Notes under the pieces: model-generated
Told to the model about the DNA's origin: nothing
Databases searched by the model: none
Seen by the model: the letters and a program-made list of their open reading frames with translations, nothing else
IMG/VR virus record: IMGVR_UViG_3300042293_000422
Span: 1 to 24,054 of that record
DNA length: 24,054 bases
DNA from: a virus
Direction: 5' to 3' (one strand)
Program-made: the position numbers and the translations under genes
Part shown: in pieces, positions 9,223 through 17,933 of the stretch
Position numbering within the stretch: the stretch's first letter is position 1
Layout: each line of letters starts with the position of its first letter

Positions 9223-9860
9223 CGAATCCCGCTCCATCCAAGTAGTTCGCGCCGATGCTCAATCGACTCTAGTAATTGCTGATCATGAGGGTTACGAGAT
9301 CCAAGCGGCGCTATCTCATCCAACACAAGAGCCAAGCCTGGCTTGCATTGCCTGCAAGGAGAGGTTTCGGTTTCGCTGTCCAACCAACCTCTGTAGCAAG
9401 ACTCATGCGAGCAAGAGCAGCTACTGCCGAAGCAATGCCTATCCAAAGGATCTGCGGCTGTCTCTGTCTTTGCGAAGTGTGCAGCGCTAGCGAAGATCTG
9501 ACCGATGCTCATCGGCTCGCCATCGTTGCCAGCCTGCGGGCGCTGCATGTCGTATACGGCTGCTTTGAACCATTCAGGCATAGGAACTCGCGCCGGTTGT
9601 GATGCTGTCTCTGACCGGCTCAGACTCTCCTTAACCTTCCGCTGCTTGCGATGAGCAGCAATGAGGATATCCAGCGTTAATACGTTTGAACTCTCCGCGT
9701 AATGATCCCTAGAAATCTGCCGAGCGTCTGCAAGTGTCAAGCCGCTTGCCTTCTCAGTAAGCATCTCGGCCCATTCCGTCACCCGGTCTGAAGTCACCGG
9801 AATTCGCGCGTCTAGTCCATTGATCGAAGCTAGCAATTGTCTCGCCTCTGGAAGCTGCAT
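9219..9860 (-). CDS. Helicase-loader-like replication protein with Cys cluster
   Basis: The 213-aa protein has an N-terminal helical domain (residues 1-75: ITSDRVTEWAEMLTEKAS-like helices, DARQISRDHYAESSNVLT) that resembles the putative DnaB-loader/primosomal proteins of actinophages. Near 140-170 there is a Cys-rich cluster (CFGSSCSCSHESC, then CRQC) likely to bind zinc. AAGGAG precedes the ATG at 9860 by 7-8 nt. The gene overlaps the initiator's 3' end by 107 nt in another frame. Its position directly after the initiator supports a loader role, but no AAA+ Walker motif is present, so it is not a DnaC-type ATPase. Confidence 0.55.
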   Translation of the reverse strand: MQLPEARQLLASINGLDARIPVTSDRVTEWAEMLTEKASGLTLADARQISRDHYAESSNVLTLDILIAAHRKQRKVKESLSRSETASQPARVPMPEWFKAAVYDMQRPQAGNDGEPMSIGQIFASAAHFAKTETAADPLDRHCFGSSCSCSHESCYRGWLDSETETSPCRQCKPGLALVLDEIAPLGSRNPHDQQLLESIEHRRELLGWSGIR

Positions 9861-10746
9861 CTATTCGCTCCTTCTCGTATTGCTCAATCTGTCGATCAAG
9901 CTTGGCTAAGTATTTGTCGTTCACTTCTGACTTGCTTAGTTGTCCAGTTCCTCGCTCGGGGAGCGGGTCATCTTCCCAACGTCCCTGATTTAGCCACGTT
10001 GCGGGATGCGGCGTAAATTCTTCCTGCCGGTTTGGATCATCAGCGAAGGCCTGCGCTCCGGAGATGATCGATTCAGCATCAGCGATCAGGAGAGCTTTCT
10101 TCCAAGCAGCGTAGGAAGCGAGTTTTCCTACTCTGCGCGGATAGGTCTTCCAGAAGTGTTCGTAATCGTCTTCGTAACGTTTCCCAACTTCCTTGTTCCT
10201 AGTTCCTAGTTCCTTAGTCCTTTGTCCTTGTTCCTTGTTCCTTGTTCCTATTCCTTGTTCCTTTGTCCTTGTTCCGGGACTCTCGCGGGACTCCCCTAGA
10301 GACTCCCCTAGGGAGTCCCCCATAGTGTCCCCTAGGGACATTTCATCAATTCCCTCTATAGAGTCAACAGAATTAACAGATAAAGGCGCATCTAGGGAAG
10401 AACCATCATTCTTCTTCGCCGATGTTCTGTAACCTCGCTGCTTCTCTTTCTTTGATCTCCAGGCCTCTCTAGATTCGATTACTTGCGCCTTCGTTTGGTT
10501 GTGCGCGTCCCAATCATGGAAGATGAAACCGCCTTCTCTTACTTCCCAAAGCCCGGCATCTACTAGCGCTTGCGTAGTCTCCTGAGATCCACCAAGCCTC
10601 GCTATGAGCCTTGCAGGGATGAATCCATCAGTGAGCTGTTCGCCTGACCATGACCCGGCGAGCGTCCAAAGTCCTATGGCATCTAGCCCGAGATCTAGGA
10701 TCTTTGGATGCGAATGAAAGTGATCATCTACCTTGAAGTAGGTCAT
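9754..10746 (-). CDS. Replication initiator-like protein with origin repeats in its linker
   Basis: The 330-aa protein has an N-terminal winged-helix-like domain (MTYFKVDDHFHSHPKILDLG, AIGLWTLAGSW, LIARLGGSQETTQALVDAGL, GGFIFHDW) typical of phage replication-initiator/DnaD-like proteins. A low-complexity linker (~110-195) follows, with SLGESLGES and TKEQG-type repeats. A C-terminal helicase-interaction-like domain comes next (YEHFWKTYPRRVGKLASYAA, then FTPHPATWLNQGRWEDD, the usual end motif of this class). The linker DNA forms an origin-like repeat array. The start ATG lacks its own RBS and overlaps a 13-codon ORF as ATGA. The C-terminal 35 residues overlap the next gene. Organisation resembles lambda O, with ori inside the initiator gene. 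Confidence 0.75.
   Translation of the reverse strand: MTYFKVDDHFHSHPKILDLGLDAIGLWTLAGSWSGEQLTDGFIPARLIARLGGSQETTQALVDAGLWEVREGGFIFHDWDAHNQTKAQVIESREAWRSKKEKQRGYRTSAKKNDGSSLDAPLSVNSVDSIEGIDEMSLGDTMGDSLGESLGESRESPGTRTKEQGIGTRNKEQGQRTKELGTRNKEVGKRYEDDYEHFWKTYPRRVGKLASYAAWKKALLIADAESIISGAQAFADDPNRQEEFTPHPATWLNQGRWEDDPLPERGTGQLSKSEVNDKYLAKLDRQIEQYEKERIDAASRGETIASFDQWTRRANSGDFRPGDGMGRDAY
10193..10384. other. Putative replication origin inside the initiator gene
   Basis: From 10193 to 10275 there are 12 tandem units of about 7 nt, consensus TTGTTCC, one being 6 nt. They are followed by GGGACTC at 10276 and 10287, two tandem GACTCCCCTAG units (10289, 10301), and two palindromes: GACTCCC-CTA-GGGAGTC (10301-10317) and GTCCC-CTA-GGGAC (10327-10339). 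A markedly AT-rich stretch (10340-10384) with palindrome CTCTATAGAG (10354-10363) comes next. Iterons beside an AT-rich unwinding region within an initiator gene match the lambda ori layout. Function is inferred. Confidence 0.55.
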
Positions 10747-10952: not shown

Positions 10953-11276
10953 TTAATCAAGCAGCATATGAAGCGCCAAGAGCGCCTGCTGAGGGCAGAC
11001 ACCATTGCCAAGCGCTTTCAATTCCTGCGCCGGTCGCAAGCCGTGGCCGGTAACGTGACCCGGCTCTAATCCCATCATCCATTCCACAAATAACGGACTC
11101 AAGCGCGGCCGGCCGTTCACTCCGGGGATGGTGGGATTAGGGGCTGATCGTCCGAGCACTCGCTCCCATCGAACAATGGCGCCTGAATACTTGCCCCAAT
11201 CGATAGCGCTTCCTGCGTCAGGCTCGCCCCATGGCCGTTCCCGTTGCTGTGTGTCTCCTTCTGTTTCAACTTCCAT
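10953..11276 (-). CDS. Cytosine methyltransferase C-terminal part (motifs IX/X region)
   Basis: The 107-aa frame carries WGKYSGAIVRWERVLGR, then RPRLSPLFVEWMMGLEPGHV and ALGNGVCPQQALLAL, the C-terminal block of phage C5-methylases (ALGNGV...PQQ is motif X-like). ATG 11276 is preferred over 11285, because GGAGG abuts the latter but is 10 nt from the former. It overlaps the LPTP-repeat frame by about 160 nt and is in the same frame as the N-terminal methylase ORF, 456 nt away. It may act as a separately translated subunit or be joined to its neighbours by recoding. A sequencing-error split is the alternative. Confidence 0.7.
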   Translation of the reverse strand: MEVETEGDTQQRERPWGEPDAGSAIDWGKYSGAIVRWERVLGRSAPNPTIPGVNGRPRLSPLFVEWMMGLEPGHVTGHGLRPAQELKALGNGVCPQQALLALHMLLD

Positions 11277-11989
11277 GCTTCCCATTCCTCCGGTGTGTAG
11301 TTGCTGCCCATATCCATGACGGTAGGAGTAGGCAGCAGTGCTAGCGCGTTCTCTAGGTTCTGCGGCTGATCTAACGGCCTTGCATAGATGTTCTGATTCC
11401 TTGTCTCGCCATTCTGCGCGCGAGGAGTAGGCAGGAGATGATGCAGCGCCCTCGCTAGCGTGTCTTCATCATGAGGCCGATGGTTCGCAGGTCCAATAAT
11501 GTTCTCCGTTGCGTCATGCGCCACCGGAGTAGGGAGCAAATATCCCGGTGGGAGCATCTCTGTCTGAACAATGTCAGTCAGACTCGCCTGATTTCCTTTC
11601 TCCATCCTCCGCGCTGATGTTTCCGGGTTGCTGCTCATCTTCGTTCCATCAGCAGCGGTAGGCGTAGGGAGCATCTGATTTGCTAACGCTCGACTGAGAG
11701 TATCCGAAGCATTCGGGCCGAATTCATCCGTTCTATAGAGCGGCATCTCTCGCGAGTCTCTCGCCAGCGGGGTAGGCAACGATGAAGATCCTTGCGCGAC
11801 CGTGGGGCGCTCCGGCGTCTGAAGCTCGAACAACTCCCCATCTAGCGTCGTACCCCATTCGGGAAAGCTCGGCGATGACATCTCCAAATCCCAAAGTGAG
11901 GTGGCCTCGCACGTTCTCCAAGACAACGACTCTAGGTCGAAGCGCATCGATGGCAGTGGCAACGAATGGCCATAGGTGTCTTTCATCAT
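11117..11989 (-). CDS. LPTP-repeat methyltransferase-associated protein
   Basis: The 290-aa protein has five LPTPxxxD/N-type repeats (SSLPTPLARD, MLPTPTAADG, LLPTPVAHDA, LLPTPRAQNG, LLPTPTVMDM), each at the head of a polar segment. This is a known companion region of phage cytosine methylases. The region before the first repeat (SFPEWGTTLDGELFELQTPE) resembles the family's usual lead-in, although here it overlaps methylase motifs in another frame for 257 nt. AAGGGAAG lies a few nt before the ATG at 11989, supporting independent initiation. Function is unclear; target recognition or regulation of the methylase is plausible. Confidence 0.62.
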   Translation of the reverse strand: MMKDTYGHSLPLPSMRFDLESLSWRTCEATSLWDLEMSSPSFPEWGTTLDGELFELQTPERPTVAQGSSSLPTPLARDSREMPLYRTDEFGPNASDTLSRALANQMLPTPTAADGTKMSSNPETSARRMEKGNQASLTDIVQTEMLPPGYLLPTPVAHDATENIIGPANHRPHDEDTLARALHHLLPTPRAQNGETRNQNIYARPLDQPQNLENALALLPTPTVMDMGSNYTPEEWEAWKLKQKETHSNGNGHGASLTQEALSIGASIQAPLFDGSECSDDQPLIPPSPE

Positions 11990-12257
11990 TCTTCCCTTCC
12001 CTTTTACCCGCGTGCGAGAATGGCTGACAGGGATAACCCCCAGTCAGGATGTCTACCGGCTCAACATCAGCCCAATTGACTTTCGTAATATCGCCCAGAT
12101 TCGGAACGCCGGGATTATGCGCCGCAAGGATCTTGCAGGCCGCCGGTTCGATCTCCGAATACCAGGCGAGTTCTCCTCCGAAGTATTGCTGACAAGCCAT
12201 ATCCAGCCCGCCGTAACCGCTGAAAAGGCTTCCTATCCTCACGACATCCCCCGGCAT
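11733..12257 (-). CDS. DNA (cytosine-5) methyltransferase N-terminal catalytic part
   Basis: The 174-aa frame holds C5-methylase motif I (SLFSGYGGLD, 10-19), motif IV with the nucleophile (GGYPCQPFSHAGKR, Cys77), motif VI (ENVRG, 114-118) and motif VIII (GRARIF, 153-158). It stops at DAAL soon after motif VIII, so it lacks the target-recognition and C-terminal motifs. These are supplied in other frames by the two ORFs downstream. Modification probably protects phage DNA from host restriction. The start is near the end of the Cas4-like gene, with a 19-nt overlap. The exact start is uncertain: the purine-rich AAGG is too close to the first ATG. Confidence 0.85.
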   Translation of the reverse strand: MPGDVVRIGSLFSGYGGLDMACQQYFGGELAWYSEIEPAACKILAAHNPGVPNLGDITKVNWADVEPVDILTGGYPCQPFSHAGKREGKNDERHLWPFVATAIDALRPRVVVLENVRGHLTLGFGDVIAELSRMGYDARWGVVRASDAGAPHGRARIFIVAYPAGERLARDAAL

Positions 12258-17325: not shown

Positions 17326-17475
17326 ATGACACTAGAACAGTTCAAGCAGATTGTTATCGTAATGAATGATGCTCGCATTGATGGACGCATGACGCGCGAA
17401 CTTCACGCTATTGAGATGCGCCGCATTGATTCAGCACTAACCGCCGCTGGCTTCTCATGGTGGGATCTCGCATGA
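17326..17475 (+). CDS. 49-aa protein of unknown function
   Basis: The ATG has GGGAGGA 6-7 nt upstream. The product MTLEQFKQIVIVMNDARIDG... is amphipathic helical, with RMTRELHAIEMRRIDSALTA and a hydrophobic, Trp-rich tail GFSWWDLA. It overlaps the Prim-Pol start as ATGA, so the two are translationally coupled. A helper of the primase-like protein is possible, but this rests only on position. Confidence 0.6.
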   Translation: MTLEQFKQIVIVMNDARIDGRMTRELHAIEMRRIDSALTAAGFSWWDLA

Positions 17476-17933
17476 ACGCTCACGATTACGCAGAGCGCGG
17501 ATGGCTTGTCTTCCCGCTCGCTCCACACTCAAAGCAGCCGAACCCGCGTTACGCGCCGAGCGGTTACAAGAGTGCGACGACAGATCACAACATCATTGAT
17601 TCTTGGCCTGATGGTGGGAACATCGGCATAGCCTGCGCTCCATCTGGACTCATCATCATTGACGTTGACCATAGGAACGGGCCAGATCTCGCGCTAGTGA
17701 ATTCGCTTCCAGCGACGCACGCAGTAGGAACCGCTGACGGATTCCACCTCTACTACCGCACCGAGCAACTAGGCCCCGTGCGCGGGAAGCTCGGCGATGG
17801 AATCGACATCAAATATAACGGCTACGTCGTCGCTCCCCCGAGCATTCATCCTGACGGGATCGCCTATCACGAGATCGACGGCATGGAACCAATCGCGCTA
17901 CCTGCCAGCCTCGCGAGTTTGGTGCTGAAGTGA
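17472..17933 (+). CDS. Stand-alone Prim-Pol domain protein (bifunctional primase/polymerase-like)
   Basis: The 153-aa protein matches the N-terminal Prim-Pol domain: MNAHDYAERGWLVFPLAPHS, GNIGIACAPSGLIIIDVDHR with the metal-binding DVD, GTADGFHLYYR, and GDGIDIKYNGYVVAPPSIHP, the typical late block of the family. It contains only this domain; family members usually continue with a helicase domain. It may synthesise primers or do translesion/terminal synthesis for phage replication. It is coupled to both neighbours (ATGA upstream, GTGA downstream). Confidence 0.85.
   Translation: MNAHDYAERGWLVFPLAPHSKQPNPRYAPSGYKSATTDHNIIDSWPDGGNIGIACAPSGLIIIDVDHRNGPDLALVNSLPATHAVGTADGFHLYYRTEQLGPVRGKLGDGIDIKYNGYVVAPPSIHPDGIAYHEIDGMEPIALPASLASLVLK

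Follow-up and report, generated by a model that had tools for sequence, protein, structure and literature searches.

A likely phage replication origin within the linker-coding part of its initiator gene, with half-sites that track residues of the initiator's N-terminal domain

Dense arrays of repeats lie in the middle of a phage replication initiator gene, P0001, and the question this raises is whether they are the origin on which the initiator acts. The virus record that we examined is 24,054 bases long, is listed as linear, and is probably a fragment; this whole stretch is referred to below as the window. In addition to P0001, it holds phage structural genes, recombination genes (Erf and an exonuclease), and SSB and WhiB genes. 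An earlier note on this DNA had proposed an origin inside the initiator gene on the plan of lambda O. We consider it likely that the linker-coding part of P0001 is the phage replication origin and that the N-terminal domain (N-domain) of the protein reads the half-sites within it. The features on which the argument draws are as follows.

9754 to 10746, minus strand: replication initiator gene P0001, 330 amino acids, with an N-terminal winged-helix domain, a linker, and a C-terminal FWxxYP...WLNQGRW domain
9952 to 10173, minus strand: C-terminal domain (C-domain), helical, common to relatives with unrelated N-domains and other linker repeats
10189 to 10275, minus strand: 7-nt tandem array, 12.6 copies, GGAACAA on the coding strand, Tandem Repeats Finder score of 104
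10276 to 10339, no strand assigned: GTCCC/GGGAC half-site array, with GGGAC at 10276, 10287, and 10335 and GTCCC at 10315 and 10327
10333 to 10382, no strand assigned: putative AT-rich DNA unwinding element, from nearest-neighbour stability, holding the palindrome CTCTATAGAG at 10354 to 10363
10420 to 10491, minus strand: long helix after the winged helix, codons 86 to 109, from the AF2 model and covariation

P0001 matched PHROG families 2447 and 9474, both replication initiation proteins, with E-values of 7.3e-43 over residues 1 to 291 and 2.3e-31 over residues 1 to 276, respectively. Pfam gave no family for P0001 at an E-value of 0.1, neither RepA_N (PF06970) nor phage replication protein O, and NCBIfam gave no match. 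The RepA_N domain was also absent from the Pfam listings of 13 relatives. Using tblastn, we found 647 relatives of P0001 in phage records, mainly in phages of Mycobacterium, Gordonia, and Arthrobacter. Relatives of the initiator come mostly from actinophages and actinobacterial genomes; the layout described below is kept among them, while the unit sequence and the C-terminal domains vary. Downstream of the initiator, named relatives carry genes annotated as a helicase loader and a DnaB-like helicase. We considered the next gene in the window, P0002, as a helicase loader, and this identity was unsupported. Within the 24-kb fragment, GC skew showed no clear turn at the linker site.

The start of the P0002 ORF (9860 to 9219) overlaps the last 35 initiator codons (9754 to 9860) in another frame, and this overlap shows zero differences from the close relative L001, which suits two proteins read from one stretch. 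A C5 cytosine methylase gene (10953 to 12257, minus strand) is seemingly split over three overlapping ORFs in different frames: the Pfam model is matched in its first half by the ORF at 12257 to 11733, and those at 11989 to 11117 and 11285 to 10953 look by eye like the remainder. This could be a broken gene, a programmed frameshift, or a sequencing error. Farther along, a Prim-Pol N-terminal domain stands alone as a 158-amino-acid gene (17457 to 17933, plus strand), followed by a small HTH-like ORF.

All of the repeat elements lie within codons ~124 to 189 of the 330-codon ORF (10746 to 9754, minus strand). Reading the sequence and running Tandem Repeats Finder, we found every element that the earlier note had placed in the linker: a 7-nt array, GGGACTC repeats, palindromes, and an AT-rich stretch. 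The 7-nt array is the top-scoring tandem repeat in the window. It had been described as twelve units of ~7 nt; the array is real, but it starts at 10189 rather than 10193, and its units are imperfect (GGAACAA, GGACAAA, GGAATA, GGACTAA, and GGAACTA). As had been claimed, the 7-nt unit gives a seven-residue protein repeat (21 nt), and translation passes through all three frames of the array, giving TKEQG-type heptapeptides. Matched against itself at lag 7, the linker scored 48. Neither 200 codon-order shuffles nor 200 synonymous shuffles produced a score this high, and among 2480 background ORF windows the 99.9th percentile was 29.

Next to this array are the half-sites. GGGACTC is present, as the earlier note had said, but in just two copies (10276 and 10287) plus one inverted copy (GAGTCCC at 10313). 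The two palindromes of 13 to 17 bp centered on CTA were found as described, the 17-bp one being GACTCCC-CTA-GGGAGTC (10301 to 10317) and the 13-bp one GTCCC-CTA-GGGAC (10327 to 10339). Tandem Repeats Finder also reported a 12-nt array of 4.2 copies at 10289 to 10339. The density of GTCCC/GGGAC peaks in the linker, with 5 occurrences in 70 bp versus 34 in all 24 kb, and this motif clusters nowhere else in the window. The AT-rich stretch was likewise where it had been placed. By nearest-neighbour energies, no other 50-bp stretch in the 24-kb record is as unstable as positions 10333 to 10382, and the stretch ranks 2 to 4 at other sizes from 30 to 80 bp. It adjoins the half-sites on their N-domain side.

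We compared this region with that of L001, which is ~92% identical to the window over the shared region. The longest part of the gene without any difference spans 170 bp (10178 to 10347), that is, both arrays. Only 1 of the 66 third positions in codons 124 to 189 differs, where the remainder of the gene would predict 9.5 (p = 4e-4). The length of a tandem array is usually variable; in L001, the length and the synonymous sites of the 7-nt array are unchanged. Comparably kept stretches occur in only four places in 7.9 kb of aligned windows, namely, the linker block and three others. The linker DNA looks constrained at synonymous positions, in a test that rests on two genomes and to which recent recombination could contribute.

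The earlier note had named relatives with a conserved initiator lacking repeats as one finding that would speak against its proposal. We collected 58 nonredundant genes encoding the FWxxYP...WLNQGRW domain and scored the 210 nt before that domain. The proposal survived this check: in 55 of these 58 genes, linker repetitiveness exceeded the 90th percentile set by 2480 background windows, and in 36 of the 58 it exceeded the 99th (Mann-Whitney p = 1e-37). As a control, we scored the C-domain DNA of the same 58 genes, and this exceeded the 90th percentile in 1. The linker periods were 5, 6, 7, 11, 12, and 21 to 24 nt. Of the 36 strongest periods, 20 are not divisible by three, which points to repeats at the DNA level rather than the protein level. 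The N-domains of these relatives fall into several groups without detectable similarity to one another, each with its own repeats. One relative is chimeric: L002 (L002:5401-6411) is ~70% identical in the C-terminal part, its N-domain is unrelated, and the repeat in its linker is 24 nt long, GGATGGGGACCCCCC. Since L002 keeps the C-domain and differs in both N-domain and repeat, N-domain and linker repeats seem to be exchanged together.

We also looked at relatives that share the N-domain, often with other C-domains. In these, inverted half-sites come directly after the N-domain codons and are followed by a short tandem array. The half-sites fall into the classes GTTCG/CGAAC, GTTAC/GTAAC, GTCAC/GTGAC, GTCCC/GGGAC, and GATCG/CGATC, and their spacing is most often 11, 8, 12, or 7 bp. 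A short array scored well in 116 of the 168 genes with a clear half-site class; in 110 of these 116 it is found on the 3' side of the half-sites, and it is mostly of 5 nt and CCCGA-like. A 20-bp stretch of low stability usually follows it (mean z = 1.66, n = 111). The window departs from the family in having a 7-nt purine-rich array and in having its unstable stretch on the opposite side of the half-sites. We also saw that a hairpin, e.g., CTTCTNNAGAAG, often stands after the short array and AT-rich segment and before the C-domain codons (many relatives, e.g., L112, L116, and L176).

We measured covariation between N-domain residues and half-sites using predefined half-site classes and only the DNA after codon 105; the E-values of the locus searches refer to candidates only. 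The predicted half-site was ~7- to 30-fold enriched in the linker relative to the flanks and the N-domain DNA. A broader approach, in which every 5-mer that recurred on either strand was counted and compared with codon-order shuffles, proved too blunt: it reached p ≤ 0.01 in 23 of 88 cases, with short-array words caught as well. In the first sample, the N-domain column with the strongest association to half-site class was residue 100: M100 accompanied GTTCG in 25 of 25 genes, and K100 was present in 7 of 9 GTCCC genes. Among pairs with <45% core identity, the class was common to 52 of the 68 that had the same residue 100 and to 24 of the 329 others.

The half-site classes had been chosen after the first 80 loci were inspected, and we therefore place the main weight on a rule that was fixed beforehand and then tried on freshly scanned viral contigs and contigs of bacterial genomes. 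The rule does not cover genes with fewer than three half-sites or those, among them many relatives, that have another type of helix. It was right in 57 of 74 new nonredundant scorable genes (45 of 58 viral and 12 of 16 from bacterial genomes) and missed about a quarter of these out-of-sample predictions; chance was 27% (p = 9e-19). We found that residues 96, 100, and 103 together gave the correct class in 128 of 144 genes by leave-one-out nearest neighbour, compared with 94 of 144 for the whole core (residues 1 to 88). On the core tree, residues 100 and 96 co-change most with half-site class (p = 2e-9 and 3e-8, respectively).

The single-residue rule fails for K100 with A or N at residue 96, where eight genes have GTCAC. 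A two-residue rule fits better, although this refinement is post hoc. E96 with K100 goes with GTCCC (19 of 19), A or S96 with M100 goes with GTTCG (38 of 38), T96 with V100 goes with GTTAC (9 of 9), and A96 with Q100 goes with GTCAC (15 of 16). Among named phages, Arthrobacter phage Bauer and Jinkies are of the M100 type, and Gordonia phage EMoore is of the Q100 type. P0001 itself has W96 (codon 10459 to 10461) and K100 (codon 10447 to 10449), and this pair occurs in the window and two other genes, all with GTCCC/GGGAC. Other relatives, including L052, L067, L137, L151, and L158, have an AGRxGG-like helix instead of ERxxxR, together with different repeated words, e.g., CTAGC in L052. Given those words, further specificity classes probably exist.

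We then considered where these residues lie in the protein. In the N-domain model (pLDDT, 94.7), a single long helix, residues 86 to 109, comes after the winged helix and carries residues 96, 100, and 103. The covariation suggests that this helix contacts the half-sites. The PDB matches of the N-domain were generic winged helices, and the structure search gave no significant match beyond these; the RepA_N structures 4pql, 5kbj, 4pt7, and 4pta scored Z = 6.6 to 7.1, level with winged helices of unrelated proteins. For the C-domain, the model (pLDDT, 90.8) shows a small domain of helices, to which the structure search gave no PDB match, and a sequence search against solved structures found nothing.

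The proposal of an embedded origin on the lambda O plan is thus strongly supported by the layout in relatives, the synonymous-site constraint, the adjoining unstable DNA, and the tie between residues and half-sites. The earlier note had put its emphasis on the 7-nt array, and here the evidence favors a different assignment: the putative binding sites of the initiator are the half-sites GTCCC/GGGAC together with the palindromes, and the 7-nt array is an element separate from them. We computed the repeats, their layout in relatives, the tie of half-site to residues 96, 100, and 103, the low duplex stability, and the near-unchanged DNA in L001. In the mechanism that we propose, the N-terminal domain would bind the half-sites, about one helical turn apart, via residues of the long helix. 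The resulting nucleoprotein complex would open the adjoining AT-rich DNA at 10333 to 10382, and the C-terminal domain, on a linker encoded by the origin, would recruit a helicase or its loader. The 5- to 7-nt array would be a third element of the origin, serving perhaps as a spacer or as a single-stranded contact beside the opened DNA. With somewhat less than even confidence, we extend this to the relatives as a two-part proposal: that two or three residues on one helix of the initiator set origin specificity and have their counterpart in a five-base half-site within that gene, initiator and origin thereby changing specificity together, and that the 5- to 7-nt array is a distinct third element, possibly contacted as single-stranded DNA beside the opening site.

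Covariation shows that protein and site fit each other, not what follows from binding, and palindromes about one turn apart also suit repressors. The half-sites might then be an autoregulatory operator or a partition (centromere-like) site instead of an origin, the protein controlling its own expression or segregation. We consider this unlikely. The sites are ~400 bp inside the gene, away from a promoter; a destabilized element stands beside them both in the family and in the window; and the families to which the protein belongs carry the annotation of replication initiator, with a helicase loader and a DnaB-like helicase as the next genes in relatives. For partition in particular, no ParA or ParB gene was seen in the 24-kb window.

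It is also improbable, in our judgment, that the 7-nt array represents iterons bound by the initiator, with the GTCCC/GGGAC palindromes as accessory sites. No repeat in the window is more regular than this array, and L001 has it unchanged, but residues 96 and 100 track the half-sites and not the short unit, and by inspection the short unit is CCCGA-like in most relatives, including some whose half-sites and helix residues are quite different. Finally, low complexity is common in disordered linkers, and slippage lengthens short tandem arrays, so the repeats could be by-products of a disordered, hydrophilic linker that is prone to replication slippage and whose DNA has no role. This account predicts neither the tie between half-site and N-domain, the fixed order of elements, and the destabilized stretch nor the inverted half-sites and the unchanged array length and synonymous sites in L001, and we regard it as very improbable.

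An origin within the linker-coding DNA, our preferred reading, would place the likely start of replication in a large set of phages whose initiator is mostly annotated as hypothetical or as a "replication initiation protein." The relationship between residues 96, 100, and 103 and the half-site is a checkable rule for the fit of initiator and origin. If binding follows this rule, these genes would be a natural system for the joint change of specificity in replication proteins and origins within protein-coding DNA.

The bacterial basal origin unwinding system consists of DnaA boxes, a GC-rich cluster, and DnaA-trios. The order of elements in the P0001 family, with double-strand sites, a short GC-rich repeat, and unstable DNA, resembles it, although that system uses a different protein, DnaA. 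Origins inside initiator genes are already established for lambda O, SPP1 gene 38, pSK41 rep, and P1 repL. In lambda, the origin ori-lambda has iterons and an AT-rich element inside the O gene (PMC6022878). P0001 is like lambda O in having repeated sites and an AT-rich element within the initiator gene and unlike it in having half-sites that form short palindromes, an unwinding element on the N-domain side, a 7-nt array, and no Pfam match to phage O. The P1 lytic origin, oriL, likewise lies within its initiator gene, repL, where synonymous changes in the AT-rich part impair replication (PMC9948254). The candidate origin in P0001 shares this location; RepL is a different type of protein, and the abstract of that study describes no comparable half-site array.

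In SPP1, oriL has direct repeats and an AT-rich unwinding element within gene 38, with a helicase loader and helicase downstream (PMC6316719). P0001 resembles gene 38 in its internal repeats and AT-rich element and, in its relatives, in the helicase loader and helicase downstream. SPP1 also has a second origin, oriR, whereas in the window GTCCC/GGGAC clusters at the linker only. For other mycobacteriophage RepA proteins, an origin has been suggested near or in repA, and repeats were not found (PMC7157519). Among open-licence papers, our literature search turned up neither a description of this layout nor a residue-to-site rule for these phages.

The comparison with RepA_N initiators is close in plan. 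In pSK41 rep, the N-domain reads boxes central in its own gene, the origin encodes the linker, and the C-domain is separable; in the pPR9 chimera, N-domain and origin were swapped together (PMC5703833). In PLE satellites, RepA_N domains covary with their own origins (PMC8263062). P0001 differs in having no RepA_N Pfam match and an N-domain that is alike only at the common winged-helix level, in specificity that appears to lie on a long helix past the winged helix, and in a second array of 5 to 7 nt. Like pSK41 rep, P0001 has putative boxes inside its own gene, a linker encoded by the candidate origin, a separable C-domain, and an apparent co-exchange of N-domain and repeats.
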